Shown: positions 13,705 to 43,979 of the stretch, in pieces
Layout of the letters: the number at the start of each line of letters is the position of its first letter
How positions within the stretch are numbered: position 1 is the stretch's first letter
Origin: Crossaster papposus
Taxonomy: Eukaryota; Echinodermata; Asteroidea; Velatida; Solasteridae
Length of the DNA: 64,000 nucleotides
Reading direction: 5' to 3'
Assembly (NCBI GenBank): GCA_037893245.1
Contig: JBAIAA010000699.1
Location: 372,001 to 436,000 of the forward strand
Notes under the pieces: generated by a model
What the model was told of the DNA's origin: nothing
Seen by the model: only the letters and a program-made list of their open reading frames with translations
Databases searched by the model: none
Translations under genes and position numbers: made by a program

Positions 13705-16700
13705 TTACTGCGTTTCCGATAGTTTTTTAATTTCGTCACTCAGCACCTTGGTGATGTGCATGGCTTTCTTGGCCTCCTCTCCACCAATCTTCTCCAGGGC
13801 AATCTTTGCTGCTTCTCGAACATTGGAGATCGCATCATTGCGCCTAATGATGTGAAGAAAAAAAATAAGAGTCAATTACAAATAATTACAAATAAAGTTA
13901 AAAAAACCTAACCTACTCCACTTTTTTTTTGTTTTAGATGTTTTGAAAGCACAAAATTAAACGAGTTATTTGCATAGAGGAAGTGCCGTGGCCTAGTTGT
14001 CAGGAGCATTGAATTCGTGGCCTGCAGGTAGTTCTGGAGGTTCGAATCCAGCCTGGGTTAGGACACTTTTACACATATTATTGGTAGAGGAATTATCAAT
14101 GCCTTGCTGTGGACTAGTTAACCATCCCAACCCTATTCGTGCTGTGAAGAGATCAGATCGTCTTGTTTCAGTTTGGGGTTGCTGGTTCTTCCACACTTTC
14201 CTCTAGTAGCCCACAACTCGAGTGGCCTTGGGCACTTTTGAGTGGTTTTATTACCGAAAAGAATTTTTAACAATAATCCAATCCAATCCAATCCAATCCA
14301 ATCCAATCTGAATTTGTAAAGCGCCATCAATCCAGTTGACTATATTCCGAGGCGCTGCCAGGAACAGCGGGGCAAAGCCCCTCCTTTTAGCGATAATTGT
14401 TACTGGGTTCTTTTACAAGTATTACACAACACACGGGACCTCCAGCTTTACGTCCCATCCGAAGGACGTAGCAATAGTGGTTTAATTGGCTTGCTTAAGG
14501 ACACACATGTCGACACCGGGACTCGAACTCACGCTCTGCGGAACAGAAAGCCGGGTTCTTAACTGCCCAGCCACCGCCCGGCCACGACACCCCACAATAA
14601 TAATATTATTACAAATCTTTTTACCAGAGATTGACCAGCTGAGGTGCCGCCTCATTTGCCTTGATGTGTCCCAGTGCGAGGCAGCCACTCTCTCTGACCA
14701 GACGGTCTTTGTCCTTCAGCAGATTCATCATGCGACTCACGGCATGCTTGTTCTGGGGCTCGGCGACGCGGGCCAAGGACAGAGCCGCGACGGCGCGCAC
14801 ATTCTCATCCTTGTCGTTGCAAAGATCAAGCAGGGCCTCCAGCACAGAGTTACTGTGGAATTTGCCTGTCAGGAAGAAAACAAGAAAAAATTGCTAAAGT
14901 GGATTGTAAAATTCCTTTTTTCTATTGGTCGAGATCCTTGCTCTGCGCAACATCTAGGCAGTGCATAGGTTCGAGTCCCTGTCTGGTTCCGTTGTTTTTC
15001 CCCAGAATTGGGGTTTTCCTCCCACCTCTAAAACTGTTGATGTCTTCTCTCTGCAGGTTTCTTCAGGCTTTTTACAAGCTACAGTGCTAAGGACACTTTT
15101 GAGGAATCCTTGGTTTTGCTACCAGAATAAAGATGATGATAATAATGATAGGTTATATATGTGACCAGCTCTACAAAAAGGTGTATTAAGTCGCGCTGTG
15201 CATTATTGTGTAATGGCCCGCTCAACGTTGAGAGGGTAAACATGTCATCAAAATGTGATTTTTGCCATGAATGACATATTTAATACTACAGTTTCAGGTT
15301 TCATTTAAAGAAATGTTGATTTTGATAAATAAAGTGGAAAAAATACCATTTTGTGTGCATCGTTCTGTTGTAGTACAAGACAGCCGGCCATTTCAAAGCC
15401 TGTTTTTTCAAGTAATCAATATGTAAACACGTCATATCTCAAGAATGAGAGGGGCTGTGGAGCTCTATTATATACCAAATGAAAGCTTAGGTTGTGGGCT
15501 TTTTAACCATGTATATAACTCAATTTCTTTTTTTGCGACATAATACACCTTTTTGTAGAGCCGGTCACATATATTCTCAGTACTAGGATGTTTTATTCAT
15601 GACAACTAATTGGCATGAATAATATAAGTGAAGCGTGCTTTGCGTCATACACACGCCGACCGGTACGCATACTCGGTGTGTCCATCCTTCTCACCAGGGC
15701 TCTCGAAAGCGGTCTCAGAGCACCACCTACTGTCCACGCACACATGCTGTCATACTTACTGAGGTTTTGGATAGCATCAATACGGACGGTGGAGTTCATG
15801 CTGAAGACTTCTCTCATGGTGTAACTCTCCAAAGCGTGTTCCTGAACTCTCTGCCAAAACTCGCATCTCTCACCATTGACAGTGCAAAATTCTGTATTCA
15901 CACAACGGGACAAGACGTCAACTTCAACCTCTACTAGACCCACAATATATCCATAAAATGTGATGCGATCAAGCAAAATCAGTCGGAACTCAGCAATTCT
16001 TGTTTTGAGATAGGGTCAAAAATTTGTTCGTAGGGTTGGACAAACCCAAATTGACTTTTTTTACAAAAACAGATGGGGAAAATATTTTTCTTTTACATGA
16101 AAATACTCTTTTAACCAAATTCAGAAGGGAAGTGATACAAAAACTTTATTTTCTCAGTTTCTTTATTTTTAACGTGCTGGTGTTCAAATGGTTGTAATTT
16201 TGAAACCAAAGGTCGTATTCACATGGGGTTTTCACTGAAATAGAGCCTGAAGTACGCTACAAAAGAATATGTAAAAATCCCAAAAATAACATGGGCTTAC
16301 TTCAGACTGATTTTGCTTGATCGCATCACAAATTAGGGAGGTGTGTTTCTAAATTTGGTATAAAATAGTTGTATAAAATAGTTGTATAAAATGACTTGAT
16401 TTTTTTTTGCTGAAATAGGAGGTTACCGTTGTAGTGTTGTTTGGTGACCAGACCGTCGGAATCTTCATCCATCTCATTATTGAGGATACCCAGGAGCCAC
16501 AGCTGATCGACATTCTTAAACATCTCGTCCAGTTGACTGCTGTACTCCTCTAAAAAGGCAGCTTCAAATCTGCACAGAAACAAGCAGAAACATTTTGAAT
16601 ATGCAAATTGTTTGACAAAGTAGTAGGAAGATACAGGAATTTCAAGAAAGAAGTAGAAATTTCCAGAAAAAAGTAGAAATTTCCAGAAAAAAGTAGGAAT

Positions 16701-19700
16701 TTGAAGAAAAAAGTAGGAATTTGAAGAAAAAAGTAGGAATTTCAAGAAAAAAGTAGAAATTTCAAGAAAAAGTAGGAATTTCAAAAAACAAAAAGTAGAA
16801 AAAGGTAATTTTTTTTAAATTTTTTTAATTATGAAAAGTAGGAAAATTTAAAAGTTTGCAAGTGGAAAGCTTCCTGACTGTTTGTATTAAACTTAGTACA
16901 TGTATCATGTGAATAGTAACCATCGTCTCGGTGAGTTTACCAATCAAAGTACGATGCATATATGAAATTGTACGTCACAGCCCTAAAAGTAAACATTTGC
17001 TTACATCTCCCATTCCACGGATGATTGGACCTTAAAGTGCTTCTCCCAGAAGTCCAACTCCTTCTTGACTTCAAAGTCCGGTTTGGAATGAAGGTTGAGG
17101 TGGGAACGCTGCCGTTGAAACTTGGCTCGTTTGTTGTCAGCTTTGAAGACAAAAAATATATATATATATATATCAAGGAATGAAATTAACACTTGATTTA
17201 AAGAATAATTTGAACACACGAAATAACCCTAACCACAATGTTCGGTTGACCATAGTTGGAACTTGATAAAAAAATCCATTAACAAAAAAATGACAGCACA
17301 ACCAGGTACAATTATTTTGAAGGATGCTTGAGACCATTATTCATTTGTTGAATTAAATGTTACTTGATTTTTTTTCATATGAATTTGTTCCTTTTGTATT
17401 TAGATATTTGTAACCTGGCACCACGAAATGGGTGGAAAGTGGCGAAATTAAAAAGTTGACATTATTACATTTCTAGAAAAAAGAAGTCCTTAGCTTTCAA
17501 ATGGTGTATTGTGTTTTGCTGTAGCTTATTCCTAGCCGCAGCTATACTCTTTTGAAATTGCTGAAGTCATGCTCCCTTGTTTTGAGAAAACAGAGTTCAA
17601 AGTCTGTGAACCGTGCCAACTATAATACCAATCAGTGCAAATCAGCCACCAAAACCACACTTTAGAGTTTTAATTGAGCTATACAATTTTGGTATATAAT
17701 AAAGAAGGTTTATTTAGATATAAAAACTCCAAACCGACCTCCCACTTGAAAGATTGACGTTTTGGCCAACAACTCGTTTTGGCAATGTGCGACTTTCCGC
17801 TCATTTCGTGGTGCCAGGTCACATTTGTAAATCTGTATATTACTTTTAAGTATCAATTTAGCTTTAGAATACAATTTTTCCGGTAATTAGCAGCTTACTT
17901 TTGTCATCTTGATTCAGCTCGGCCAACTTGCTCTGGATTTTCTTGACCAGCTCCATCATGGATTGATTGAGTGCTGCCGTGTCGGTGAACATCGTCCATT
18001 CCACCGGAGCAAGCTGAAGACGCCTACAGCATCAATAAGATGATCAAAAAGAAAGAAAGAGTGGAACTCGTTTGACATTTCCTTAAAAAGTACATCCCGC
18101 CTGTCTCTCTTTAAATGTAACTATAAGAAATATTTGTTAAATAATTATTTGGAAAAAGATTAACTCTCACGGGGTCGCGGGTCACAGGTTTTGTTTGTAA
18201 GTTCCTTATTTTTGTGTGAATAATCGTGTTAACTTAATAACTGTTTTGTCTTAATGTGTAAGTTATATGTATATGTATGTGGGGGGCTCCTACTCGACAA
18301 GCTCTGCTTCCTAGGGACCCCCTTCCACATTGATCCTAAATTAAGTGGTGTTTGCTTATTTTTTTGTGTGCAACGTTATGTGGAAAATAAAGTGAATTGA
18401 ATTGAAATTGAATTGAACCAACAGAATTATTGCTTAAACGCTTACTGGACGTAAAGATATTAAACTCTAATCTCTCTGTGAAATTATTCCATCTTGGATG
18501 CTGTCATTTTGAAGGAAATAATGAAAGTACATGTTGTCCAACGATGTGTCTCGAAAAGGAATTTTTGGAAAGTTCCATCAGGTTTAGTTGTTAAGCACCA
18601 TTCGTTAGATTTTGAGAACATTTGCTGGTTCAAACAATAAACATGCATAACTGACAAATTCAGTCTGAAGTAGGCCCCGGTCATTTTTTTGATTTTTACA
18701 TATTCGTTTGTAGCGTACTTCAGGCTCCATTTCAGTGAAAACCCCATGTGAATACGACCTTTGGTTAAACAATTACAACCATTTGAAGACCAGCACGTTA
18801 AAAATAAAGAAACTGAGAAAATCAAGTTTTTGTATCACTTCCCTTCTGAATTTGGTTAAAAGAGTATTTTCATGTAAAAGAAAAATATTTTCCCCTGTTC
18901 ATCTGTTTTTGTAAAAAAGTGAATTTGGAGTTTTCCACCCCTACAAACATATTTTGGCCCTATCTCACAACAAGAATTGCCGAGTTCCGACTGATTTTGC
19001 TTGATCGCATCACATATATCTGGTTCACATATCTGGTTCTCTAAATGTGCAATGGATCGGTATAATAAACCTAAAAGATTAGGAGTAAGGGAGGGGTGGG
19101 GGAGAGGGAGGGTACGTGGGGGGTGCTTACATTCCAAAGTCCATGAGTGGGATCATGTCTTCTCTTCCTTCCATGGCACATGGGAAGATGGGTTTGCTGG
19201 AGACGTAGGCTAAGGCTAGCTCATCTTTGCAGTACTTGGAGACGACAGACTTGGTGCTCAGTAAGGACAGAAAGAGCTGGGGTCATAAACAAATGATATC
19301 AAGTGAAACATTCTACAAATGCAAATTATCTGTAACTAAGTGTCGAATATATTCCAGTCCTAAGTCGACCCATTTTCTGGTTCACCGGTTCATCGGATCT
19401 GACAGGATCTGATGTCACCAGAAAGGTGTGTAAATTATTTGTAAGTGTCGAATATATTCCAGTCCTAAGTCGACCCATTTTACTGGTTCACCGGTTCATC
19501 GGATCTGACAGGATCTGATGTCACCAGAAAGGTGTGTAAATTATTTGTAAGTGTCGAATATATTCCAGTCCTAAGTCGACTTATTTTACCGGTTCACGGA
19601 CCATCAGAATTGGGTTTGCACTGACAAATCTGATCGATCTATCCGCATGAAATCAAACACGCTTGATTTTTCTCATCTGATTTGACAGGATCTGATGTCA

Positions 19701-21626
19701 CCAGAAAGGTGTGTGGGTAAGTACCTCGATTTGCACCGGATGCAAAACTGATATTAACCAATCAGGCTCACGAAAAAAGTCACATGATTTAAAATTGACA
19801 GCTGCCATTTTGTTATCATGTGATTGGTCGGATATCATGTGACTGATCACCATGTGACCAATTATAAAATAAAATCATATGGATCATACTTTTTCCCACA
19901 AAAAAAATGATAGATTGTGCTTTCCTCTAAACTCGTACCTTGGCATCGACGATGGCCTGTCCAATTTTGTTGAAGAATTCCACCCCTGCTTTCAGCCCCA
20001 CCTCATCAACCCAGACTGTGACGCCAGCTTTCTCCAAACCATCTACACAAATCAAAATCAACGAACTGAATATAAGTATGTTTGATCGGTCACAAACAGT
20101 CACAATTTTCTCCCGATTTCCCCGAGCCCGCTGGTTGTAACATCCCATTCCTGTAAAACACTGTGACTATATAGTCGAATTCCATCAACTATGGTTGTTT
20201 GTTTTTGTAATTTTAAGTTTCACTGTTTAAATGCGCACTATATTCACAGATAACAAAATCAACTACTAAAAGAAATTTCCAAAAATGCCTCTCTTGAGAC
20301 GCATCTTTGGAAATAACCTATTGTTTTCTTCAAAATGTCAGTATACTGTTATTACATGTACATCATGCTGCCTACATTACTTTGTATATGTAAGCCTGTT
20401 GAAGTCCTACAATATGCTGTATACATACATGCAGTGAATTTCACTCTGATGCAATATGCTCTGCATGAGCTTGACATGAAGTGTATGTTTCTAATTCACT
20501 GTGTATTACGCATGCAAACATACAGTATGTGTTTGCATTCCAGGCCGGCTACGCCCATAATCACTGCATTTAATAAGACCATTTTATAGTTGATAAAAAG
20601 TCAGTCAGTACAATTTAAGTCATCCATTTTGTCATAATTTTCCCGACATAATTAGAGTTTTTTGTTTTCACCTACATACTGGCTCATTCATAAATCAACA
20701 AAACTGAAGCACCTGTCCAATCCATACATTAATTAGTGTGCATTAAAGGTAGGATACACCATTTGCAGATATTGAAAATATTTACTACCGAATTATTAAG
20801 AAATATCTTACTCATTGGAAAGTAAATAATGATTCTAGGCATGTAGCAAAATAATTGCGCTAAATATCCTCTAATTATTCCGAAAAAAAATAATTTTATA
20901 AAGAAAAATTTGCAGATCGCCGGATGGCGATAGCGAAAAAAACAAAGATAACACAAGAATAACTGCTCGACGCCGGTTGAAAACAATCGCTGTTTTTCGT
21001 GCTTTTCTCGGCATCCGTGGTTGTAAAACTTCCGAAAGGTCAGTTAATCGATATTTACTATAAGATACAACCCCCCAAATCTACTCCTATTCATGAAAAT
21101 TCAAGCAATTACCAATGGTGTATCCTACCTTTAAATCAGTATAGTGACTAACGTTGCAGTATTCAACACTCTCATTACTCATTAACAGATTTTCTTTGAA
21201 TCACGTACCTTTAATTTGCCTCATTTGGTCTTTGTCCTGATGGCTGTAGCTAATCATGATGTCCTTTGGCTCCATGCTGATTGACCGATCGGGACCCTTA
21301 TCCTCCACGTTGTTTACACCAGACTCACCGCTGCCTTTTACTGGGACAGCCTTGATCTCTTCACTACCCTGGTTCCCTACGCTAGCTCCACTGCTTTGAT
21401 CCTTCACAGCCACTGGATCACTGGTACTTTGCAGTTGTACATCATTTGACCCCTCCTGACCCTGCTGATTTGCCGATCCTGTCTCTGCTATCTGCGGTTC
21501 GGAGTGGGAGTGGGGCCGGTAGCGTTCGGCGGAGGGTGACTCTTGGCCTTTAACGCGGCCGAGACTGCCCGGCGCACTCTTGGGGCGCTTTTTCTTATGT
21601 TTGGACTTGCTGCCAGCTGTTCCCAT
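13705..21626 (-). CDS. TIR-HEAT protein 1 (N-myristoylation motif, TIR, FW-linker, HEAT repeats)
   Basis: Coding exons: 21626-21209, 20042-19939, 19276-19131, 18023-17899, 17140-17005, 16569-16427, 15891-15760, 14865-14625, 13843-13705. Phases agree at every junction and the 1,584 nt encode 527 aa. Residues 1-15 (MGTAGSKSKHKKKRP) fit an N-myristoylation site (Gly2, Ser6) followed by a polybasic patch. 16-118 are disordered. A TIR domain spans about 119-235: DIMISYSHQD, VWVDE, then KYCKDELALAY with Glu193 at the site used as catalytic Glu in NAD-cleaving TIRs. 285-320 hold FWEKHF...VEWEIFEAAFLEEY, resembling the EF-hand-like module of Cbl. HEAT repeats follow at about 385-515 (DENVRAVAALSLARVA, DRLVRESGCLALGHI). 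I know no characterised vertebrate orthologue; SARM1 has the opposite order (ARM-SAM-TIR). Likely an innate-immune or stress signalling protein at membranes, which is inference. A paralogue lies head-to-head at 36684-43979. Confidence 0.88.
13979..14255 (+). mobile_element. tRNA-derived SINE in intron of TIR-HEAT 1
   Basis: A 5' tRNA-like head (A box TGGCCTAGTTGT, B box GGTTCGAATCC) is followed by a body (CTGTGAAGAGATCAGAT, GGGTTGCTGGTTCTTCCACA) that recurs at 55803-56330. Its tail abuts a CCAAT-type pentamer run at 14276-14306. Confidence 0.7.
14262..14592 (-). mobile_element. tRNA-derived SINE with CORE-like body, minus strand
   Basis: Read on the minus strand: tRNA-like head (GGCGGTGGCTGGGCAGTTAAG, B box GAGTTCGAGTCCC), a central body (AAAGAACCCAGTAAC, GGGGCTTTGCCCCG), a tail GGCGCTTTACAAATTC, and an ATTGG pentamer run at 14276-14306. 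The central body is shared with the element at 36850. It looks full length and ends 33 bases short of exon 8 of TIR-HEAT 1. Confidence 0.75.
14930..15150 (+). mobile_element. SINE, family with GGGGTTTTCCTCCCACCTC core
   Basis: B box GGTTCGAGTCC, core GGGGTTTTCCTCCCACCTCT shared with 42065-42330, and a 3' part (CAGGCTTTTTACAAGC, GAGGAATCCTTGGTTTTGC) shared with 36850-37075. Ends in a GATGATAATAATGATA simple repeat. In intron 7 of TIR-HEAT 1. Confidence 0.65.
15160..15569. mobile_element. TGTGACC-type MITE, subfamily A, copy 2
   Basis: Inverted ends TGTGACCAGCTCTACAAAAA and (inward) TGTGACCGGCTCTACAAAAA; TA-rich flanks are compatible with TA target duplication. About 410 bp, same family as 13244. 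Confidence 0.8.
15959..16330. mobile_element. TGTGATGCGATC MITE, complete copy
   Basis: Terminal inverted repeats of about 28 bp beginning TGTGATGCGATCAAGCAAAA at both ends; about 372 bp. A second copy in inverted orientation is at 18656-19015. Both are in introns of TIR-HEAT 1. Confidence 0.8.
16621..16800. repeat. Minisatellite of about 19-20 bp units
   Basis: About nine units of AAAAAAGTAG(A/G)AATTT followed by CCAG or (C/G)AAG. It directly follows exon 6 of TIR-HEAT 1 on the plus strand. The minus-strand frame through it is FLL/FSG-rich noise. Confidence 0.8.
17409..17823. mobile_element. TGTGACC-type MITE, subfamily B, copy 1
   Basis: Ends TGTAACCTGGCACCACGAAA and (inward) TGTGACCTGGCACCACGAAA; about 415 bp. 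Related in its ends to the element at 39545 (both continue into TGAGCG.AAAGTCGC). Confidence 0.75.
18150..18416 (+). mobile_element. Retroelement 3' end with (ATTGA)n tail
   Basis: GGGGGGCTCCTACTCGACAA and CTAGGGACCCCCTTCC are followed by GGAAAATAAAGTGAATTG and an ATTGA repeat. An AATAAA plus pentameric simple-repeat tail is typical of LINE or SINE 3' ends. No coding frame remains. Confidence 0.5.
18656..19015. mobile_element. TGTGATGCGATC MITE, second copy (left end truncated)
   Basis: Inverted copy of 15959-16330. The right end has TTGCTTGATCGCATCACA; the left terminal repeat has lost its outer bases and starts at CAGTCTGAAGTA. Confidence 0.75.
19338..19610. repeat. Tandem repeat of about 110 bp, about 2.5 units
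   Basis: GTGTCGAATATATTCCAGTC through CACCAGAAAGGTGTGTAAAT is repeated at 19339, 19445 and, partially, 19552. Intron of TIR-HEAT 1. Confidence 0.8.
20743..21134. mobile_element. MITE-2 (TTAA-flanked), copy 1
   Basis: TTAA at both ends, with inverted repeats AAGGTAGGATACACCAT; 392 bp. Further copies at 38834, 40090, 50875 and a fragment at 41882. In intron 1 (coding) of TIR-HEAT 1. Confidence 0.85.
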
Positions 21627-24885: not shown

Positions 24886-25005
24886 GTCAAGCTATCACCA
24901 AATTCGGCACCACACCACATTCAACGCCACCTTCGGCGTCGTACATGTACTACGTTGCACTGTAACTACGGTGCTCCGTAACGGACATTCACTTCAAAGA
25001 AAACA
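24886..25005 (-). promoter_or_regulatory. Upstream block of TIR-HEAT 1, matched upstream of TIR-HEAT 2
   Basis: Read on the minus strand it has TCTTTGAAGTGAATGTCCGT, TACGGAGCACCGTAG and GGTGATAGCTTGACGCGGA. The same words in the same order occur on the plus strand at 35939-36050, upstream of TIR-HEAT 2. It is either shared promoter DNA from an inverted gene duplication or a dispersed repeat. Confidence 0.5.
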
Positions 25006-25027
25006 ATATATATTACTGATAATAGAT

Positions 25028-28000
25028 CCATAAATTCATCCACATTTACTTCCGCGTCAGTTTATTGGGCTTTATTTTCCCTTCGTACAAAATCCAACAA
25101 AACCACAAAGTAAAAAAAGAAAATAACAAAAAATACAAAAAAATATAAACTAAAAAAATACGGAGGATTCGAACCCACAACCTTTGGACATGGAGGCTGG
25201 TACATTATCCATCAGAGTACCGCATATCGTTAACCTAATTCAATGAACTCCGTCTGATATCTACACACTATACCAGAGTCATGAAAAGCTGCCGTATATA
25301 CAAACAATTCCATACACATTTAGGTCCATGCATAAATTCATCCACATTTACTTCCGCGTCAGTTTAATGGGATTAATTTCCCCTTCGTAAAAAATCCACC
25401 AAAACCACAAAGTAGAAAAGTAAAAAAAATAAAAAAAAAATAATAATAATATAATAATAATAATACTAAGGATTCGAACCCACAACCTTTGGACAAGGAG
25501 GCTCACATTATCCATCGGGGTACCGCATATCGTTAACTTAATCCAATGAACTCCGTCTGATATCTACACACTACCAGAGTCATGAAAAGCTGCCGTATAT
25601 ACAAACAATTCCATACACATTTAGGTCCATAAATTCATCCACATTTACTTCCGCGTCAGTTTAATGGGATTAATTTTCCCTTCGTACAAAATCCACCAAA
25701 ACCACAAAGTAAAATGGAAAAGAAAAAAAAAGGAAAAAAATAAAACATACTGAGAATTCGAACCCACAACCATTGGACTAGGAGACTGGTACATTATCCC
25801 TCAGAGTACAGCATATCGTTAACCTAATTCAATGAACTCCGTCTGATATCTACACACTATACCAGAGTCGTGAAAAGCTGCCGTATATACACACAATTCC
25901 ATTCACATTTAGATCCATAAATTCATCCACATTTACTTCTGCGTCAGTTTTGTGGGCTTTATTTTCCCTTCGTACAAAATCCAACAAAACCACAAAGTAG
26001 AAAAAGAAAATAACAAAAAATACCAAAAAATATAAACTAAAACAATACTGAGGATTCGAACCCACAACCTTTAGACATGGGGGCTGGTACATTATCCATC
26101 AGAGTACCGCATATCGTTAACTTAATCCAATGAACTCCGTCTGATATCTATACACTACCAGATTCATTACAAGTTGCCGAATTTATTTTACAGTACAACT
26201 ATTTTACAATCATGCACACCCTATATGCAACAATAACAATTATCCACAAAATTCTATACACATTTAGATCCATAAATTCATCCACATTTACTTCCGCGTC
26301 AGTTTATTGGGCTTTATTTTCCCTTCGTAAAAAATCCACCAAAACCACAAAGTAGAAAAAAAAAATATTAATAATACTGAGGATTTGAACCCACAACCTT
26401 TGGACAAGGAGGCTAGTACATTATCCATCAGAGTACCGCATATCGTTAACTTAATCCAATGAACTCCGTCTGATATCTACTCACTACCAGAGTCATGAAA
26501 AGCTGCCGTATATACAAACAATTCCATACACATTTAGGTCCATAAATTCATCCACATTTACTTCCGCGTCAGTTTAATGGGATTAATTTTTCCTTCGTAC
26601 AAAATCCACCAAAACCACAAAGTAGAAATGGAAAAGAAAAAAAAAGTAAAGAAAAAAACCCCGAAAGATTCGAACCCACAACCTTTGGACAAGGAGGCTG
26701 GTACATTATCTATCAGGGTACCGCATATCGTTAACTTAATCCAATAAACTCCGTCTGATATCTACTCACTACCAGAGTCATGAAAAGCTGCCAAATTGTA
26801 CAACAATTAACAACTGTTTTTAGTAATGCACACTGTATGCAACAATTTAACAACCGAGCACAAAACTCCATACACATTTAGGTAAATAAATTCATCCACA
26901 TTTACTTTCGCGTCAGTTTATTGGGCCGTATTTTTCCCTCGTACAAAATCCACCAAAACCAAAAGAAAAAATGGAAAAGAAAAAAAAAAGTAAAGAAAAA
27001 AAACATAGGGAGGGTTCGAACCCACAACCTTTGAACAAGGAGGCTGGTACATTATCCATCGGGGTACCGCATATCGTTAACTTAATCCAATGAACTCCGT
27101 CTGATATCTATACACTACCAGAGTCATGAAAAGCAGCCGTATATACAAACAATTCCATACACATTTAGGTCCATGCATAAATTCATCCACATTTACTTCC
27201 GCGTCAGTTTAATGGGATTAATTTCCCCTTCGTAAAAAATCCACCAAAACCACAAAGTAGAAAAGTAAAAAAAAATAAAAAATAATAATAATAATAATAA
27301 TAATACTGAGGATTCGAACCCACAAACTTTGGACAAGGAGGCTCACATTATCCATCAGGGTACCGCATATCGTTAACTTAATCCAATGAACTCCGTCTGA
27401 TATCTACTCACTACCAGAGTCATGAAAAGCTGCCAAATTGTACAACAATTCCATACACATTTAGGTCCATAAATTCATCCACATTTACTTCCGCGTCAGT
27501 TTAATGAGATTAATTTCCCCTTCGTAAAAAATCCACCAAAACCACAAAGTAGAAAAGTAAAAAAAAACAATATTAATAATAATAATAATAATAATACTGA
27601 GGATTTGAACCCACAACCTTTGGACAAGTAGGCTCACATTATCCATCAGAGTACCGCATATCGTTAACTTAATCCAATGAACTCCGTCTGATATCTATAC
27701 ACTACCAGAGTCATGAAAAGCAGCCGTATATACAAACAATTCCATACACATTTAGGTCCATGCATAAATTCATCCACATTTACTTCCGCGTCAGTTTAAT
27801 GGGATTAATTTCCCCTTCGTAAAAAATCCACCAAAACCACAAAGTAGAAAAGTAAAAAAAAATAAAAAATAATAATAATAATAATAATAATACTGAGGAT
27901 TCGAACCCACAAACTTTGGACAAGGAGGCTCACATTATCCATCGGGGTACCGCATATCGTTAACTTAATCCAATGAACTCCGTCTGATATCTACTCACTA

Positions 28001-29365
28001 CCAGAGTCATGAAAAGCTGCCAAATTGTACAACAATTCCATACACATTTAGGTCCATAAATTCATCCACATTTACTTCCGCGTCAGTTTAATGAGATTAA
28101 TTTCCCCTTCGTAAAAAATCCACCAAAACCACAAAGTAGAAAAGTAAAAAAAAACAATATTAATAATAATAATAATACTGAGGATTTGAACCCACAACCT
28201 TTGGACAAGTAGGCTCACATTATCCATCAGAGTACCGCATATCGTTAACTTAATTTAATGAACTCCGTTAGATATCTACACACTACCAGAGTCATGAAAA
28301 GCTGCCGTATATACAAACAATTCCATACACATTTAGGTCCATAAATTCATCCACATTTACTTCCGCGTCAGTTTAATAGGATTAATTTTCCCTTCGTACA
28401 AAATCCACCAAAACCACAAAGTAGAAATGGACAAGAAAAAAAAAGTAAAAAAATAAAACATACTGAAAATTCGAATTCACAACCATTGGACTAAGAGACT
28501 GGTACATTATCCCTCAGAGTACAGCATATCGTTAACCTAATTCAATGAACTCCGTCTGATATCTACACACTATACCAGAGTCATGAAAAGCTGCCGTATA
28601 TACACACAATTCCATTCACATTTAGATCCATAAATTCATCCACATTTACTTCCGCGTCAGTTTATTGGGCTTTATTTTCCCTTCGTACAAAATCCACCAA
28701 AACCACAAAGTAGAAAAAGAAAATAACAAAAAAGTAAAGAGCAAAAGCCCGAAGGATTCGAACCCACAACCTTTGGACAAGGAGGCTGGTACATTATCCA
28801 TCAGGGTACCGCATATCGTTAACTTAATCCAATAAACTCCGTCTGATATCTACTCACTACCAGAGTCATGAAAAGCTCCCAAATTGTACAACAATTTACA
28901 ACCGTTTTACAGTAATGCACACCGTATGCAACAATTTAACAACCGAGCACAAAACTCCATACACATTTAGGTCCATAAGTTCATCCACATTTACTTTCGC
29001 GTCAGTTTATTGGGCCGTATTTTTCCCTCGTACAAAATCCACCAAAACCAAAAGAATAAATGGAAAAGAAAAAAAAAAGTGAAGAAAAAAAAACATAGGG
29101 AGGGTTCGAACCCACAACGTTTGGACAAGGAGGCTGGTACATTATCCATCGGGGTACCGCATATCGTTAACTTAATCCAATGAACTCCGTCTGATATCTA
29201 CACACTACCAGAGTCATCAAAAGCTGCCGTATATACAAACAATTCCATACACATTTAGGTCCATAAATTCATCCACATTTACTTCCGCGTCAGTTTAATG
29301 GGATTAATTTCCCCTTCGTAAAAAATCCACCAAAACCACAAAGTAGAAAAGTAAAAAAAATAAAA

Positions 29366-29398
<33 letters not shown>

Positions 29399-30370
29399 GA
29401 GGATTCGAACCCACAACCTTTGGACAAGGAGGCTCACTTTATCCATCGAGGTACCGCATATCGTTAACTTAATCCAATGAACTCCGTCTGATATCTACAC
29501 ACTACCAGAGTCATGAAAAGCTGCCGTATATACAAACAATTCCATACACATTGAGGTCCATAAATTCATCCACATTTACTTCCGCGTCAGTTTAATGGGA
29601 TTAATTTTCCCTTCGTACAAAATCCACCAAAACCACAAAGTAGAAATGGAAAATAAAATTTAAAAAAAAAATAATAATAATAATAATAATATTACTGAGG
29701 ATTCGAACCCACAACCTTTGGACAAGGAGGCTGGTACATTATCCATCAGAGTACCCCATATCGTTAACTTAATCCAATGAACTCCGTCTGATATCTACAC
29801 ACTACCAGAGTCATTAAAAGTTGCCGAATTGTACAACCTTTTACAACCAGAATCGTGAAAAGGCGAAGTATATACACACATTTTCGTACACATTTAGGTC
29901 CATAAATTCATCAACATTTTCTTCCGCGTCAGTTTATTGAGCTTTATTTTCCCTTAGTACAAAATCCACCAAAACAACAAAGTAGAAAAGGAAAATAACA
30001 AAAAAGTTAAGAAAAATAATCAGACGGAGGATTCGAACCCAGAACCCCTGGACTTTATTTCCCCTTCGTAAAAAATCCACCCAAACCACAAAGTAGAAAA
30101 GTTAAAAAAGAAAAAAAAAAATAATAATAATAATAATAACAATACAAATAAATCCGGAGGATTCGAACCCACAACCTTTGGACAAGGAGGCTGGTACATT
30201 ATCCATCAGAGTACTGCATATCGTTAACTTAATCCAATTAACTCCGTCTGGCTTGACACTACCACTACCAGAGTCAGGAAAAGGTGTCGTGTACACAAAC
30301 CTCCATACACAGTTATGTCATAAATTCATCTACATTTTCTTCCGCGTCAGTTTATTAAATACGAATGAAA
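25028..30370. repeat. Satellite: about 17 monomers of 290 or 340 bp, each with a tRNA-like segment
   Basis: Monomers start with CATAAATTCATCCACATTTA near 25028, 25326, 25627, 25915, 26270, 26540, 26881, 27172, 27470, 27762, 28053, 28340, 28628, 28970, 29262, 29562, 29900 and 30308. Most are about 290 bp; four are about 340 bp because of an extra AT-rich block (CAACAATTTAACAACCGAGC type). Each has a conserved part (CTTCCGCGTCAGTTTA, CCACCAAAACCACAAAG), an A-rich and AAT-repeat tract, then a segment containing GGATTCGAACCCACAACC and TACATTATCCATCAG. On the minus strand that segment reads like a tRNA with a perfect B box. The pair 27172/27470 is almost repeated by 27762/28053, a two-monomer higher-order repeat. 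Frames crossing the array are not genes. Confidence 0.92.
25152..25232 (-). other. tRNA-Arg(CCU)-like segment of the satellite monomer (example; about 18 in the array)
   Basis: On the minus strand: GTAC arm, A-box-like CTGATGGATAATG, second GTAC arm, loop CCTCC, then GGTTGTGGGTTCGAATCC. Box spacing equals that of a real tRNA and the string follows animal tRNA-Arg(CCU) closely, but the anticodon stem does not pair and there is no acceptor stem. T-rich sequence follows the B box at once, as at a Pol III stop. Other copies lie near 25470, 25758, 26056, 26385, 26668, 27017, 27308, 27603, 27897, 28183, 28470, 28756, 29104, 29402, 29701, 30032 and 30159. Confidence 0.6.
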
Positions 30371-32790: not shown

Positions 32791-32801
32791 ATGTAGTTTG
32801 A

Positions 32802-35890: not shown

Positions 35891-35938
35891 AAATAGGAAA
35901 CAGAATTAACAGAATAGTAATATCAGTATTATATATTT

Positions 35939-36055
35939 TTTTCTTTGAAGTGGATGTCCGTTACGGAGCACTGTAGTAGCGAAGGCGATGTTGGTGTTGA
36001 ATGTCGCGATCACTTGACGTGGTGCCGAATGTGGTGATAGCTTGACGCGGAGAAC
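35939..36055 (+). promoter_or_regulatory. Upstream block of TIR-HEAT 2, inverted match to 24886-25005
   Basis: TCTTTGAAGTGGATGTCCGT, TACGGAGCACTGTAG, GAATGTGGTGATAGCTTGAC. Same order and the same orientation relative to its gene as the block upstream of TIR-HEAT 1. A first non-coding exon may lie between here and the acceptor at 36559. Confidence 0.5.
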
Positions 36056-36559
36056 TTAATTGACGCTTGACGTAAAACTATGGAGGAATAAGAAGGAAGT
36101 ATTTTCTGAAGTAGTTTCAGCACTTTCGGTTTATAAAATGGAGGTGTGATCTGGGATTTAGAATTGTGAGTACAAATGTTGCCTTGAAAACACCGGGCCG
36201 CGGTCCCCAGCATCAGCAGATAGCTCGACTCGCGCCCGCTAATTAGTTTAGCTAGCACGGTTAGCGGAAAATGGTGACCGTAAGCGAGGAATTCTGTGGT
36301 TAACCGAGCCATGAAATTGGGCCCAGTTCAGAAGTGGGCGGGGCTAGGAAGGGTTGTTTAATTTGGGGTGGGGGACGTTGTATTATTATATTATTATTAT
36401 TTTTAGTTTTGCCTGACTGGCTCACGAGCCTTGTGGGCCACATATACTTTTTGACTTAGTTCTTGTACTTTTGTAGTTATATAGGCTGAATGATTAAACT
36501 GGTTAATATAATATTAATAAAATGCTTGAAAAAGTGTTTTTTGTGTTTCCTTCTTCCAG

Positions 36560-36683
36560 CTTAGCGGATAAATTTGCCTAAAAACAAAAGACTTGGATTT
36601 GGACAGCTCCTACTAAGTACTATTACAAGCAGTAAAAAAGGAACAGTACATTACTCCAGTGGCAAAGTGTGAATGACGTTATC
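36560..36683 (+). other. 5'UTR part of the first coding exon of TIR-HEAT 2
   Basis: A strong acceptor (TGTTTCCTTCTTCCAG, ending 36559) implies an upstream non-coding exon. The ATG at 36684 is in a good context (ATCATGG). Confidence 0.55.
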
Positions 36684-39600
36684 ATGGTGTACTCCAGCGA
36701 TGTGTATTTTATCTACAACAACGAGGATGAAGATTTCAGAGACTATCTTTCAAGTAAGAAGATTGTCAATTTTGCCTTTTTCGTTTAGCCCTTTTAAGTT
36801 TTAACACTACAGCCTCTCAATATAATATAGGTATGAACTCCTCAAGCTTAGGTGAAAGCCGTTGGTCCCGTGTATGTGTATTGTGTAATTGAACCTGGAC
36901 ACGCACGTAAAAGAACCCAGTCACGCTTATCGCTAGGAGAAGGGGTTCGCCCCGGTGTTTCTGGCATTTCGTTCATCCTCCTGCAGGTTTTCTCAGGCTT
37001 ACGAGCTTACAGTGCTTGGGTGCTTTTTGAGGAATCCTCGGTTTTGCCGAAAAAGAAATAATAATAATAATAATAACCCTACTTCCAAAAATGTGAGGCC
37101 CTTACATTTTTGGAAGTAGATAGGTTAACCCGCTGCCATCCCTGGTTGGAGCTCGGAGCAGTGCTGTGTCACTGCCTTTTTAGCCTGACGGAGCCTGTCA
37201 AGTCAATTATGGTGCCAACTTTCTGAGCCAATGGTTTCAAACGTGCTATCGCAATGCAAGACTTGAAAACAGAAGAAAAAAGAGGTCTGAATTAAAGGGA
37301 TCGTATACGTTTGGTAATTGGAACCCACTGTTTGTTTCAATCCTATATATTATAGTTATAGATATATACCATAAAACTAACCTGTACAAATTTCATTTCA
37401 AAAGGTGGTAGCGATTTTGAGATATTGCCGAAACTAGCGGTTATGTCCACGCACTCAGCAAGAATAATCTGCATTGAAATACACAATCTGAGAAACGTCA
37501 CTGCAGTAACGCTTCTCAGATTCAAATCAAATTTTTTGGGATAAAAAGTGAAATCTTTTTCCATAACCGGAGGACTTTGAAGTGAAAGGTTTCTAAAAAT
37601 GCATTATATATACTATCTAAAGCTGCTGTGTACTTCTTAAGTAAGTTTTTATTGCCATCAATTTTGGAGTAATTACCAAACGTATACGATCCCTTTAATG
37701 AAAGCCATCTTGATGAGGTTTATATGTTTTTTTGGTTTTTTTCAGAAAAACTGCAGTTGGACAAGTTGTCAGTATGGAATGAGGAGACGACCCACGGACA
37801 GGGATTGATTGATTCAAAGGTGAGTCTTTATCTTTATCTTTATTTCATTTTTCGGGATATACAAAATTACTGAATTAGAGAACAATTACAAATAACAAAC
37901 ACTGATCAAGAAACATAACAGAAGACAATATCCAAATAGCTCCCGCAGGATTACCCAAAAGAAACAAGTTTCTGTCGAGGGGCTCTCCAAACTAATTGGA
38001 TAATACATTTAAGGATAAATAGATTAGATATAAAGGTAATAATAAATAAAATTATTTAATAAAAAAAAAAAAAAAAAAAACAACAAAAAAAATAACAAAA
38101 TAACAAAATAAATAAAAAAATTTTAACTAAGAGTTTTCTTTTTGATTTCATAAAATACAGTAACATGATAAGGCAGAAACTGAAGAAATTAAGATCTCAA
38201 ACTTCAGTGGTGTTTCCATTAACCAGTTCGCGCCGGATGACGTATATAAACGCAAAGTTTTCCCCAGATTCAAAACGGATGACGCAAAAAAACGGCACGA
38301 GCAAGGCCAGAAATGTCAGTCAGCAGTGAGCAAGGCCAGAAATGCCTGGGTGTGCTTCCCGGTACTATCGGCCTGAACCCGCTTCGGATCGAGTTTCGTT
38401 AAAAATAATCCCGCCCGTCGGCTCGGTGATGTTAAAATAATCCCGGCGCGAACTGGTTAATAGCCCATGTGTAAAAAGAAAATAATGACTGATGGATTTT
38501 GACGGATTTTGGTCTAGTACCCTGCAGAGGCAGTCAAGAGTAATAGGGTTAATGCATCTTTTTTCATCACTGTTTGTAGGTGGCCATTATCATCATGAGC
38601 ACCACATCGACTAAGGACCAACATTGTGACGATGAAGTTTCATTGGCCTATATCACGGACACGCCCACCTTTCCTGTCACTAGGCAGAATTTTGTCGAGT
38701 TGGAGCCCACCCTGTCATTTTCCATGTAAGTCTGCATCCGGGGCTGTCATTTATTTTAATTTTTTTTCTGGTAAATAAAGTTAAAGCAATTTTTGAGAAA
38801 TCACTACTGTAGAACCCTGACTTGTGCACATCCTTAAAGGTAGTATACACCATTTGTAATTGCTTGAATTATCATGAATAGGTAGATTTTAGGGGGTTGT
38901 ATTTCATAGTGAATATCGTTTAACTGACCAGGCCGAAGAATCATGAATGTCGAGAAAAGCATGAAAAACAGCGTTTGTTTTCATCCGGCGTCAAGCAGTT
39001 ATTCTTATGTTATCTTTGTTTTTCGGATCGCCGTCTGACGATCGCGGATTTTTCCTTTATAAAATAAAAAAAATTGGAATAATTACAGGATATCTAGCGC
39101 AATAATTTTGCGAGATGCCTGGAATCATTATTTACTTTCAAATGAGTAAGATATTTCTTAATAATTCGGTAGTAAATATTTTTTTGATATCTACAAATGG
39201 TGTATCCTACCTTTAAGAAATACATCGGAGTAGGGTGAAAAACCCAATATTGAAAACTACAGATGATCTCCGTCAATTCCCGAATTAACATTGTCCCATT
39301 TTCACAGGAAGCTAATGGTAGCCAAGCTGAACTGGATGTTCTTTGAAAATGATGAGCAAAAAGCGGCCAATTATCCGGTCCTGCAGTCGTCCATCCGCTC
39401 ATCCATTGCCATGGTGACCGGCGAGGCAGGAGAGAATCGCGAGGGTCAGAATGACGAAGACGATTCAGCTCAGGTATTGGCCAGTCTAGAAAAGAATTCT
39501 CTTTCGTGTCTGCTCTCGGGCTGTCTTTGTGGTTTGAGGTAATATGTGACCTGTCATCAGAAAATGAGCGTAAAGTCGCACGGAGTGATTTCCCAGTACG

Positions 39601-42600
39601 GCCAGTCAAAGTCAAAATTTGAAGGGGTGGTCGATTTTGAGATTATATGGGTTTTTTTAAGACTAAATCCCCAACAATCAATTCCCAATTTTCAGGACGA
39701 TCAGATAAAAAATAAATTAGTTTTTGAGACAATTTTGACTATGCCTTTCTATGCCTTTCACACAATTTCTCGCAAGAAATGCCCGTTTTCTCATAATCTC
39801 TGTATTAAGACTCCAGACTAAAAAAGAAAAATACAAAAAATATTGAGTATCAAACCTCCAAGTGTATATACTATTGGAAAGCTCTGTTTCCACAGAAATT
39901 AGAAATACCCATATCTCAATTTTTGATTTTGCCGACTTTACGCTCATTTTGTGATGACAGGTCACATATGTGTTCTGGCAAAATGAGATGGAACTGGGCA
40001 GAGGTAGAAATGAGGGTTTTTAGGTTTTAGAAAAGGGAATAAAATTGTCCTTACAATGCTGTTTGTTGCGCTTCAATTAGACATTCCATAAAAAGGTAGG
40101 GTAAACCATTGGTAATTGCTTGAATTATCATGAATGGGTAGATTTGGGGGGTTGTATTTTATAATAAATACCGTTTAACTGACTTGTCCGAAGTTGTACA
40201 ATCATGGATGCCAAGAAAGGCACGAAAGACAGCGTTTGTTTTCAACCGGCGTCGAGCAGTTATTCTTGTGTTATTTTAGTTTTAGATTGCGAAATTGTCT
40301 TTATACAAATCATATTTTTCGGGAATAATTACAGGATATCTAGCGCAATAATTTTGCTGGATGCCTAGAATCATTATTTACTTTCAAGTTAGTAAGATAT
40401 TTCTTAATAATTCGGTAGTAAATATTTTTGATATCTGCAAATGGTGTATCTACCTTTAACAAGTTACGGCTGTTCAAAGTTCGCATTTATGAACATATTG
40501 GAAAAGTAAAATATTGAGAAAAAGACCTTTGAAGTTTCGCGTTTTGTACATGTGATATGGAAAAATGTGAGTTGTTTTTCCTTAGAAACACTGTTAGTAG
40601 GCATACCAAAGATTACAAATATCAATAAATCTGAAAATGTTCTCCACTCTGCTCTGTGTAAAAAGTCTCCTTTTGCAAGAACGCCTCACATATGTGATTT
40701 TTATTTCTCTGCCAAGGCATGGGAGGACAGGCAAAATCTCGCAGTGACCATCCGTAAAGGCAAAGATTTTTGGGACGACAAATTTGGCGACGCCGCCGAA
40801 GTCCCCTGGCTGGAGTTCCGGGACGCGTTCCTGGAGCAATACAAGAGCCAGATCGTTGAGCAGTTCACGGAGGCTAAAGTCCAGTGGATGACCAACCTCC
40901 TGTACGGAGACGTACTCCTGTTGCGGAAGGTCGTGAAGAAGCCCATGTACGAGATGTTCTGCCGTCACAAGCCCAACAAGCCACGGGATCCGGATCGTTT
41001 CTTCAACCGGCTGATTAACTACGCCAAGGGCTGCATAGCCATGAGAGGGGTGTTTAACATGGAGAGTACGGTACGCCTGGATGCCATCCAGAAGCTAGGT
41101 AAGTAACTGTGATCTGAAGAAAAATGTTCTAGAAAACAGACATTTTGCAAAATGCATCTCTTATAGACGATGTGCCCTCTGACGTCACGTGTTTACATCT
41201 GTATTCAAATGTGCCCGGCAGTGATGCGCACCCATCGTGTTTTACATAAACTTTGCTTAAAGAGTGACAACGCAGGTCCGATCGCCTTTGAATTATGTGA
41301 CCTCTGATGTCATCACTTTAATAACCAAATTTATGTAAAACATGCGTGCGCATATTGACGGGCACATTTGAATACAGATGTAAACAGAGGCACATCGTCT
41401 ATAGATGCATCTTCGGAATTGACCATTTATTGTTTTTTTCTTCAGAATAACAATTTGCCAGCAGCTATAATTTCACATGGAGTGAACCCTAACTCTCTGG
41501 CGTAATTTACTAGCAATTTACAACAAACTGACATGGACCACCCTGATTCTGGTGGTATACCTAATCCAATGTAAAGGACACTCAGTTTAGGACTATCGTG
41601 CCAAACAGATTTGTACGGGTTTTAACCAGTTCGTGCCGGATGACGTATATAAATGCAAAGTTTTCCCCAGATTCAAAACGGGTGACGCATAAACACGACA
41701 CGAGCAAGGCCGGAAATGTCTGTCAGCAGCGAGCAAGGCCGGAAATGCGTGGGTGTGCTTCCCGGAACTATCGGCCTGAACCCGCTTCGGATAGAGTTTC
41801 CTTAAAAATAATCCCGCCCCTCGGCTCGGTGATGTTAAAATAATCCCGGCACGAACTGGTTAACGGGTTGAGTTCGGTAATGGTTAATATCTTTGAAACA
41901 AGTAAGATTTTTAACAATACTTTGGTTGGTTACTTTTTGGATAGCTGCAAATAGTATATTCTACCTTTAAATCTTTTTTTTTCTCAAGAAAACACCCCTC
42001 TTACTTACAACCTTGATGGTATTAACAAAATTTCAATGGTTTCTTTATACCTTTTACATGTATGTTCTTTCCTCGCCTTCCACCACTATGACCCGGGTTC
42101 GAATCCGGCCTGGGCCAATATGTGGATTGGGTTTTCAGTCCCTGCCTGACTTCGTGGGTTTTTCCCCAGGATATTCTTCTGGGGTTTTCCTCCCACCTCT
42201 AAAACTGTAACTTCTTCACATTAATTGTTGAATGAAATAAAAAATTGTTGAATGAAATTTGTTCCCGCCGTGAATATGGCCATTGATGCTGGTACGGCGT
42301 TAAACCCTAAAAACTCACTCACTCACTACATGTATGTTCGTCCTTTATTTAGGTCAGTTTAAAACACAGGCTGTGGTCACTTCCCTGCTAGACTTGTCCA
42401 GTGACACGGACGCAAATACCCGAGCTGTCGCTGCAATTGCTCTTGGGAAAACAGGTAAATATGTCAGATATTGTTCCAGGCGTTTAAAGTATTTCTACTT
42501 TTCCTTTTTCTTGAAATTACTACTACATTGTATTTCCTACTTTTTTGTCCCACAAATCTCAAAAATTAAATGCTATTGAATATTATTCATAACAATGTTA

Positions 42601-43979
42601 CACACCTGGGACCAATTTCACGGAGCTGCTAAGCACACAAATTTGCTTAAAAGCACACAAGTATTGCTCATTAAAAACAAGTTATCAGCCAAAATTATAC
42701 GTGTTTTTCATGCTAAGCAAAAAAAACCAGCTGATTATCAATCAAAAACAATAAAGATCACAGGAAAATTTGGTCTGTAACCTTGTTTTTACCAAGGACA
42801 AATTTTCATGCTAAGCAAATTTTCATGCTTAGCAACTCTGTGAAATTGTCCCCAGCTGTCGTAAGTAAATACACAATGAAGGGCCTTGGGCTCAAGAGTA
42901 CTGCAACTGTACTTCCAAGAGCTCAGATGCAGACGGAGCACAAGTGTTGCGAGTACAGAGCATGCCAAATAAGGTTATGCTGTTGACTTTGGGTGAATAT
43001 CAACAACAGCTACTCTTGAAAGCCCGCAAAAGTTAAATTTTATTATGATTTTAAGCACTTTTAGATCCCAATTTCACAGCAACACAAGCTGACATTCCTG
43101 TGCACGGCTCCCAATTTTTTGTTATGAACCCTCAAGTTCGTAGCTCACAAAATGCTCTAACGTAGCCAAGAGAGTGAGAACACGCAAATCATGAATCGGC
43201 CAAAGTAGGCAAATTTGTTTGACTGATTTACAGGTCTGCCCCAATTGTCTGGCCAGAATTCCATGGAGGGTTTGGGTTTTGGTCACGGCTGCGATTAAAT
43301 CCAAACACTATTGAGTGCAGGGATAATGGATCGGTCTATTGATTATTTCTAGGTAATAAGAGCCGTCGTGTATCTCAGCGGATGATCAAGCTACTCTCCG
43401 ATGAGGATCGCTTGGTGCGAGAGGCCGCCTGTATTTCCCTGGGTCATATGCAGATTGAGTCTGCCGTGCCTCACATTATCCACATCTGGTGAGTCGACCC
43501 AGTTCCATTCGAGTGTGTTATAGTATACAAATAATGAATGCTTATGACTGCAATGGTAAGAATAATATAATGCACTGCATCTATAACCCAGGGATGTAGT
43601 CGAGTCAATCACAAGTCCCTGCAACTCGCTCACAAGTCCTTCAGTTCCAATTCAAATCACAAGCTATTCAATGAACTTTGACAAAAGCATTCCTTTGTCA
43701 TTGTTCAACCAGTTACTTGTGACTGGCTTTACGAAAGGACTTGTGAACGGACTTGCAGGGACTCGACTACAACTCTGCTATAACCTTACTGCATTTATTG
43801 TGAAGTGAAGTGAATCTAACAGACGTCATTGTGATTTGTACAGGAGAATGGACATTATCTCTCATGTGAGGGCAGCAGCCGAGGTCGCTCTAAGCCTGAT
43901 CAACTCGGACCGTGCTAAGCAGGCTATCCAGATGACTAAAGTACTCAGCGCAGAAATGAACGATCTCTCCGTGGAATAG
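36684..43979 (+). CDS. TIR-HEAT protein 2 (paralogue of TIR-HEAT 1)
   Basis: Coding exons: 36684-36753, 37746-37819, 38580-38725, 39308-39473, 40717-41098, 42353-42454, 43353-43488, 43844-43979; total 1,212 nt, 403 aa, in frame throughout. There is no N-terminal extension: the TIR domain starts at once (SSDVYFIYNNEDEDF, 4-18), with VWNEE and QHCDDEVSLAY, where Glu67 matches Glu193 of TIR-HEAT 1. About ten residues of the BB-loop/helix B region are missing compared with TIR-HEAT 1. The linker module DFWDDKFG...VPWLEFRDAFLEQY is near 169-193. HEAT repeats run from about 265 to 395 (ANTRAVAAIALGKTG, DRLVREAACISLGHM, SHVRAAAEVALSLI). The C-terminal TKVLSAEM matches TKVLSDEI of the paralogue. Exon 3 has the same length (146 nt) and phase as exon 3 (coding) of TIR-HEAT 1. 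Probably a cytosolic TIR signalling protein; function is inferred from domains only. Confidence 0.88.
36850..37075 (+). mobile_element. SINE fragment, mosaic
   Basis: The central part (GTAAAAGAACCCAGTCACG, GGGGTTCGCCCCGG) matches the SINE at 14262-14592. The 3' part (CTCAGGCTTACGAGC, GAGGAATCCTCGGTTTTGCC) matches the SINE at 14930-15150. Ends in an ATA repeat. In intron 1 of TIR-HEAT 2. Confidence 0.65.
37292..37698. mobile_element. MITE-3 (TTAA), complete copy
   Basis: TTAA at both ends with a perfect inverted repeat of 24 bp beyond TTAA (AGGGATCGTATACGTTTGG...). 407 bp, in intron 1 of TIR-HEAT 2. Confidence 0.85.
38219..38460 (-). mobile_element. MITE-1, copy 3
   Basis: TTAA at both ends, inverted orientation, 242 bp; intron 2 of TIR-HEAT 2. 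Confidence 0.88.
38834..39216 (-). mobile_element. MITE-2, copy 2
   Basis: TTAA-AAGGTAGTATACACCAT at left, ATGGTGTATCCTACCT-TTAA at right; 383 bp; intron 3 of TIR-HEAT 2. Confidence 0.85.
39545..39966. mobile_element. TGTGACC-type MITE, subfamily B2
   Basis: Ends TGTGACCTGTCATCAGAAAA and inward TGTGACCTGTCATCACAAAA, followed by TGAGCGTAAAGTCG on both sides; 422 bp with ATA/TAT flanks. Confidence 0.8.
39970..40590. mobile_element. GGCAAAATGAGA-type MITE carrying a nested MITE-2
   Basis: The left end (GTTCTGGCAAAATGAGATGG) and interior match 52344-52735. At 40090-40459 a MITE-2 copy interrupts it exactly where the 52-kb copy reads on continuously. The right end is too diverged to place precisely. 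Confidence 0.65.
40090..40459 (-). mobile_element. MITE-2, copy 3 (nested)
   Basis: AAGGTAGGGTAAACCATTGG at left, ATGGTGTATCTACCTTTAA at right. Only the right TTAA is intact. Inserted in an older MITE; both are in intron 4 of TIR-HEAT 2. Confidence 0.75.
41152..41410. mobile_element. Short MITE with ATAGACGATGTGCC ends
   Basis: ATGCATCTCTTATAGACGAT at left, ATCGTCTATAGATGCAT at right; extended arm similarity includes ACATCTGTATTCAAATGTGC. Intron 5 of TIR-HEAT 2, about 50 bases past the exon. Confidence 0.75.
41622..41863 (-). mobile_element. MITE-1, copy 4
   Basis: TTAA at both ends, inverted orientation, 242 bp; intron 5 of TIR-HEAT 2. Confidence 0.88.
41882..41970. mobile_element. MITE-2 right-end fragment
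   Basis: About 90 bp ending GCAAATAGTATATTCTACCT-TTAA; diverged and truncated on the left. Confidence 0.55.
42065..42330 (+). mobile_element. tRNA-derived SINE
   Basis: B box GGGTTCGAATCCGGCC, core GGTTTTTCCCCAGG / GGGGTTTTCCTCCCACCTC, tail TGGTACGGCGTTAAACCCTA followed by an ACTC repeat. It ends about 20 bases before exon 6 of TIR-HEAT 2. Confidence 0.7.
42606..42855. mobile_element. CTGGGRCCAATTTCA MITE, copy 1
   Basis: Ends CTGGGACCAATTTCAC and inward CTGGGGACAATTTCAC; interior GCTAAGCA words. Further copies at 44283 and 56788; a lone right end is at about 36310-36327. Confidence 0.7.
43589..43777. mobile_element. hAT-type MITE, copy 1
   Basis: Ends CAGGGATGTAGTCGAGTC and GACTCGACTACAACTCTG, with a perfect 8-bp target duplication CTATAACC on both sides (43581-43588 and 43778-43785). 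An 8-bp duplication with CAGG ends is diagnostic of hAT. Last intron of TIR-HEAT 2. Confidence 0.9.

Follow-up and report, generated by a model that had tools for sequence, protein, structure and literature searches.

Two oppositely facing genes of Crossaster papposus, here called A and B, are predicted from their sequences to encode divergent paralogues that share the order TIR domain, linker and HEAT repeats, and the TIR of A has kept pocket residues and a BB loop that the TIR of B has lost. Our reading, favoured tentatively and at somewhat less than even confidence, is that A would be an enzymatic-type TIR protein controlled through its HEAT and linker parts, and B would act without catalysis as its partner or competitor, sharing the HEAT ligand of A. 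The kind of protein is already known, being listed in invertebrates and functionally unexplored.

The window, that is, the whole stretch of DNA analysed, comprises 64,000 bp (positions 372001-436000 of contig JBAIAA010000699.1, C699) of an assembly of 1.02 Gb in 1841 contigs, which was also searched. As rebuilt from the sequence, the predicted model of gene A lies on the minus strand with nine coding exons and 527 codons, and that of gene B on the plus strand with eight coding exons and 403 codons. All 15 introns (eight in A, seven in B) have GT..AG ends, phase is continuous across the joins, and the joined frames are open throughout. Both start codons stand in an ATGG context with in-frame stops upstream, and the span from the stop of A to the stop of B is exactly 13705..43979. 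The original prediction of two oppositely facing TIR-linker-HEAT genes for proteins of 527 and 403 aa was therefore correct in coordinates, lengths and phases. It had also called the genes head-to-head, which is true of their orientation but not of their closeness: 15,058 bp separate the start codons, and a tandem array of 17 copies of a unit of about 290 bp (24974..30028) lies between them, so that the arrangement makes no case for a shared promoter. Chance or mis-joined frames can be rejected on the intron positions, the phases and the codon-position bias described below, and bacterial contamination on the 15 introns, the 825-kb contig and the ordinary neighbour genes. Rfam gave no match in the whole window at gathering thresholds, and scans for promoters and terminators and for AATAAA were uninformative.

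In gene A (all exons on the minus strand), exon 1 (21209..21626) carries the ATG, a low-complexity N-terminal arm and the TIR start in an open frame ending at a GT donor, with the TIR_2 match beginning at residue 123. The TIR continues through exon 2 (19939..20042), in which the open frame and the alignment place the BB-loop residues 154-163 that are missing in B, and exon 3 (19131..19276), whose E193 (codon 19220-19222) is aligned to AbTIR E208, and it ends in exon 4 (17899..18023), assigned from the joined open frame. The linker is encoded by exon 5 (17005..17140), which contains the FW motif, and exon 6 (16427..16569), both called from open frame and alignment, and it ends in exon 7 (15760..15891; open frame, Pfam) together with the first HEAT helix. 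HEAT repeats, matched by both HEAT_2 and HEAT, occupy exon 8 (14625..14865), and exon 9 (13705..13843; open frame, Pfam, BLASTP) holds the last HEAT repeat, the TKVLS tail and the stop.

Gene B (all exons on the plus strand) has no N-terminal arm: the ATG of exon 1 (36684..36753) stands directly at the TIR start, with in-frame stops within 150 nt upstream. Its TIR continues in exon 2 (37746..37819), which has 74 nt against 104 in A and a gap after residue 37 (about 37786), and in exon 3 (38580..38725), where the alignment shows E67 (codon 38634-38636) to be kept. From the joined open frame, exon 4 (39308..39473) encodes the TIR end and an acidic spacer, and exon 5 (40717..41098) the entire linker and the first HEAT helix. 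Exons 6 (42353..42454) and 7 (43353..43488) encode HEAT sequence by open frame and Pfam, and exon 8 (43844..43979; open frame, Pfam, BLASTP) encodes the last HEAT repeat, the TKVLS tail and the stop.

Pfam searches and the alignment agreed on the order TIR, linker, HEAT in the two paralogous genes. A gave a TIR_2 match at residues 123-236 (E = 6.5e-19; 69 bits against a cut-off of 28) and a HEAT_2 match (E = 7.9e-18; 65 bits against 27.7) with its best stretch at 439-499. B gave HEAT_2 (E = 3.7e-16; 59.6 bits against 27.7), but its TIR_2 match (E = 1.8e-5) reached 25.7 bits, below the cut-off of 28. Hence the expectation of TIR and HEAT_2 matches in both proteins was borne out in full for A and in the HEAT_2 part for B; the homology of B's TIR region to the TIR of A is indicated by three common introns and the alignment. 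About four HEAT repeats could be counted by eye in the short HEAT end, and the linker had no Pfam match above cut-off. Neither A nor B gave a match to SAM, LRR or Death at E values up to 1. The missing LRR match speaks against membership of the Toll-like receptors, the missing Death match against MyD88, and the missing SAM match, together with a TIR N-terminal of the solenoid in both proteins, against SARM1. In a PDB sequence search the best solved relatives of the HEAT part were designed alphaRep-type proteins, and 6veh, named only as a HEAT repeat domain-containing protein, was matched at E = 9.8e-13. A single-sequence fold of B exon 5 produced five helices with a mean pLDDT of 53, a low confidence that supports "helical" at most. 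Against PADLOC-DB, A had matches to 14 models, almost all of them of TIR-bearing defence proteins (best E = 6.3e-10), and B matched one HEAT/ARM model.

The two proteins are 33% identical over 416 columns (BLASTP E = 4e-75). Five introns are common to both genes in alignment column and phase (140/1, 174/0, 223/2, 415/1 and 495/2); three of these interrupt the TIR and two the HEAT part. The introns peculiar to A are three around the linker; those peculiar to B are two, of which one precedes the linker and the other interrupts HEAT. Nucleotide differences at codon positions 1, 2 and 3 amount to 0.50, 0.37 and 0.70, a pattern that is the usual mark of selection on a protein in such predicted coding sequences. 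Taken together, the alignment, the five shared introns and the codon-position bias place the match between A and B far from chance. Identity is 36/131 aligned residues (27.5%) in the TIR, 34/113 (30.1%) in the linker and 67/139 (48.2%) in HEAT, the best conserved part, and A and B probably have a HEAT ligand in common. The two had been described as aligning from the TIR domain to the final TKVLS motif; this stands for the alignment overall and fails for likeness through the TIR, where B lacks the BB loop and retains one of three pocket residues.

When the TIR of A was searched alone against PDB sequences, 11 distinct sequences were matched at E values up to 10. The first five, which we take to be bacterial, were Molecular chaperone Tir (7uwg), NAD(+) hydrolase AbTIR, CRISPR-associated Cat1, a TIR protein and a TIR domain protein; the sixth was C. 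elegans NAD(+) hydrolase tir-1 (E = 0.011) and the ninth a TLR chain (E = 0.45). The same search with the TIR of B by itself yielded no match at E values up to 10. In AbTIR, substitution of S140, R151, D167, V193, W204 or E208 is reported to inhibit NADase activity, and the Trp change matching W204 is reported to have no effect in TcpC (PMC11374754). These six positions are S, R, D, S, Y and E in A (S126, R136, D152 and E193 corresponding to S140, R151, D167 and E208, and Y189 to W204) and I, D, E, I, H and E in B (I10 at the Ser, E36 at the Asp and E67 at the Glu position). R136 of A carries no weight, since the R151 position varies among the bacterial TIRs compared. The Glu of the alpha-C region is present in both proteins; according to a 2020 survey, over 70% of all TIRs possess it and its presence does not follow activity (PMC7075850).

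A carries the trio S140-D167-E208 (S-D-E), as do the AbTIR and Cat1 stretches and 17/17 bacterial TIRs compared, seven of which were fetched for their likeness to A and ten of which are loci among the 128 TIR_2 matches of one genome. Among eight other TIRs of the C. papposus genome (those assigned a locus, out of 37 TIR_2 matches), the trio was found in one, L001, and in 0/6 of L002-L007. Because L001 also has it, the trio may be a mark of TIR_2-type sequences rather than of enzymes. B is without the ten residues VGLKAGVEFF of A, which cover the BB loop, and its exon 2 is correspondingly 30 nt shorter. A mis-called exon boundary can be rejected as the cause, as the exon is unbroken across the gap and the flanking introns agree with those of A in column and phase. 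With Ser, Asp and BB loop missing, the TIR of B is expected to be catalytically dead. The kept residues make the suggested NAD-related role more specific for A, for which any such role, or an immune one, would still be putative; the enzyme reading of A is weakened in that Glu is not diagnostic and that Ser and Tyr stand at the V193 and W204 positions.

The two proteins also differ at their N-termini. A begins MGTAGSKSKHKKKRPKS, with a net charge of +7 in its first 20 residues and a match to the glycine-2 N-myristoylation pattern, presumably as defined in PROSITE. As B starts directly at its TIR, A alone is predicted to be membrane-tethered, a motif match being no evidence of lipidation.

A tree of 27 TIRs from the same genome and from bacteria, for which the program warned that long branches may attract, placed A and B together with support of 93/80. 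Six TIRs of the same genome, L002-L007, including the LRR-TIR L003 and the TPR-TIR L006, formed one clade (95/95) with A and B outside it; A and B stood weakly (57/53) beside the non-receptor TIRs L001 and L008 of their own genome. Their place among bacterial TIRs is not settled by this tree, and no horizontal transfer is claimed. The end branch of B is the longest (3.81 against 0.59 for A), which could reflect decay.

The genome was searched exon by exon at E values up to 0.01. The search with A returned 12 matches: its own nine exons, two exons of B and, on contig C196, one weak match to the TIR only (E = 8.3e-5); the search with B returned ten, comprising its own eight exons and two of A. 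No third locus matching the linker or HEAT was found in the 1.02-Gb assembly by this search, in which distant copies could be missed because only the best candidates were scored, B having found 2/9 exons of A. Positions 2947-9372 of the C196 region (L038, C196:21001-31000) contain one exon with a Death domain, two TIR modules and a further exon whose C-terminal end is KKKKKSSVCAIL, and do not encode a TIR-HEAT protein. We take this end to resemble a polybasic prenylation box, and the region perhaps encodes another membrane-tethered TIR protein, its exons not being joined into a model. Elsewhere, on contigs C325, C360, C423 and C659, TIR_2 matches are clustered in long uninterrupted frames; L006 on C325, the sole frame of these clusters checked by Pfam, is a TPR-TIR.

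The architecture has precedents. A scan of a bacterial collection confirmed seven relatives of A, one of which (L014) matched TIR and HEAT together. L014 is a 586-aa frame on Anaerolineae contig JAIOHM010000211.1 with TIR_2 followed by HEAT_2. The genome that holds it (G001, about 7.8 Mb) is strikingly TIR-rich, with many TIR_2 matches in long frames; it gave 128 TIR_2 and 109 HEAT_2 matches, and in 12/12 frames with both the TIR came first (counted by eye, matches being assigned to one frame when contig, strand and frame length agreed). TIR-before-HEAT frames are thus common in this one genome. They lie on C47, C57 (two), C83, C146, C154, C161 (three), C192 (two) and C204; the HEAT match near 59.6 kb of C161 was below cut-off, and in the C57 frame at 2.7-3.9 kb the HEAT is followed by a second TIR. 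L014 resembles A in the order TIR then HEAT, in the S-D-E trio and in the Tyr at the Trp position, but it has 11 HEAT_2 stretches against two in A and is intronless. The tblastn match of HEAT to L014 ends before the KVLS tail, and linker queries gave no tblastn match against L001-L015. With the tree as it is, the likeness between L014 and the A/B pair would be one of order, and orthology is not claimed. DSR2 serves as a model of layout: its N-terminal NAD-cleaving domain precedes a helical region that contains HEAT repeats, its HEAT and C-terminal parts are described as contacting regulators, and an NADase ahead of HEAT can accordingly be switched by a bound protein (PMC11263360). The enzyme there is SIR2, against a TIR in A, and no homology is claimed.

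Among animal proteins, SARM1 and C. elegans TIR-1 are alike to A and B in combining a solenoid and a TIR with Glu at the catalytic position. A and B differ from SARM1 in having the TIR first, no SAM and a short HEAT end; SARM1 proteins are described as SAM and/or Arm repeats with a C-terminal TIR, and the same 2020 survey names SARM1 as the sole metazoan TIR protein with known NADase activity (PMC7075850). The layout is therefore unlike that of SARM1, as originally proposed. Among TIR proteins of unassigned function in Aplysia, one survey counts ten with Armadillo-type folds in its text and tabulates 11 as "ARM-TIR", numbers that it describes as lower than those of sea urchin and oyster (PMC9334734), and ARM-TIR appears in a figure legend on the immune repertoire of the oyster (PMC4346834). 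As far as these accounts go, the likeness is a TIR with an Armadillo-type fold outside TLR, MyD88 and SARM, and the function of ARM-TIR is uncharacterised; the descriptions, on which alone the comparison is based, mention neither the order of domains nor a linker, a myristoylation-like start or a pairing of an intact with a degenerate member such as that of A and B. In its relaxed form, the ARM-TIR definition presumably covers HEAT, through the InterPro Armadillo-type fold entry. In the Aplysia survey the strict definition is an Armadillo repeat, for which A scored 11.6 bits, below the Pfam Arm cut-off of 20.6, and the relaxed one is an Armadillo-type fold, A having TIR_2 and HEAT_2 (PMC9334734). 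Gerdol et al. (2017) are cited for ecTIR-DC families, which are conserved and widespread among invertebrates and seem to be missing from vertebrates (PMC6321704), and many private TIR combinations are reported in amphioxus (PMC2575513). In the open-access literature searched, no animal family with TIR then HEAT is named, which does not imply its absence from print.

Based on these data, we propose that an old local duplication would have given two divergent genes for cytoplasmic TIR-linker-HEAT proteins whose HEAT ends bind the same partner or signal. In A, the HEAT-linker part would restrain the enzymatic-type TIR or cluster it on demand, and the TIR, once clustered, might cleave NAD+ or produce an ADP-ribose signal, at the membrane if the N-terminal glycine is myristoylated. 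B, without BB loop and pocket residues, would be a regulator, acting as a decoy or as a non-catalytic subunit. A bolder version, in which A would be a membrane-anchored animal TIR enzyme besides SARM1, triggered through HEAT, and B its adjacent dead antagonist or partner, in parallel with bacterial TIR-HEAT proteins, we consider unlikely. An animal gene found as one copy in its genome, combining enzymatic-type TIR residues with the reverse order of domains and a degenerate neighbour, would allow one to ask whether animals have kept TIR enzymes beyond SARM1 and how a pseudo-enzyme tunes them; the prediction depends on three residues plus one loop, which makes it inexpensive to check.

The main rival, which we rate slightly below our own reading, holds that A and B are both non-enzymatic adaptors, whose TIRs assemble with other TIRs, such as those of Toll-like receptors, on a HEAT scaffold, with B as a competing adaptor. 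An LRR-TIR frame, L003, is indeed present in the same genome, animal receptor and adaptor TIRs are thought to be mainly scaffolds (PMC13142454), a survey of the oyster suggests that its TIR-only MyD88-like proteins could compete with MyD88 (PMC4346834), and the Glu kept in both proteins is not diagnostic of an enzyme (PMC7075850). However, A has the S-D-E trio that is missing from the six TIRs of the LRR/TPR-type clade, it stands outside that clade, and neither protein has a Death match. That B is a duplicate on its way out with a decaying TIR, A being functional in either way, seems rather improbable. The loss of the BB loop and two pocket residues, the TIR_2 score below cut-off and the longest end branch in the tree would all fit decay, but B has an open frame of eight exons with GT..AG ends, and its HEAT part is 48% identical to that of A; damage confined to the TIR, with the rest intact, is better explained by a change of role than by decay throughout the gene.

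Where the function of a TIR domain is known, it lies mainly in immunity or cell death. This general role and the S-D-E trio kept in A both argue against a housekeeping or developmental function apart from immunity, in which the TIR would be a protein-binding module of a HEAT scaffold. Such a function, which we regard as very unlikely, would accord with the finding of two copies, against the clustered TIR_2 matches on the contigs named above, and with the ordinary neighbour genes of the pair.

By Pfam, these neighbours in the window are an ion channel (Ion_trans, 2989-4218), a POT-family transporter (PTR2, 7362-10931) and a protein with an aspartyl/asparaginyl hydroxylase domain (Asp_Arg_Hydrox, 47213-48076), all on the minus strand, and an EH-domain protein on the plus strand (56413-56679). 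The 17-copy array fills much of the gap between A and B, and a strong GC skew (-0.19 to -0.27) extends across 24-30 kb. A perfect 11-bp tandem repeat, TGTTGTGTACA, with 17.5 copies and 100% matches, lies at 44632-44824, and a short telomere-like array of AACCCC and CCCTAA variants is found within the contig at window positions 57459-57617.
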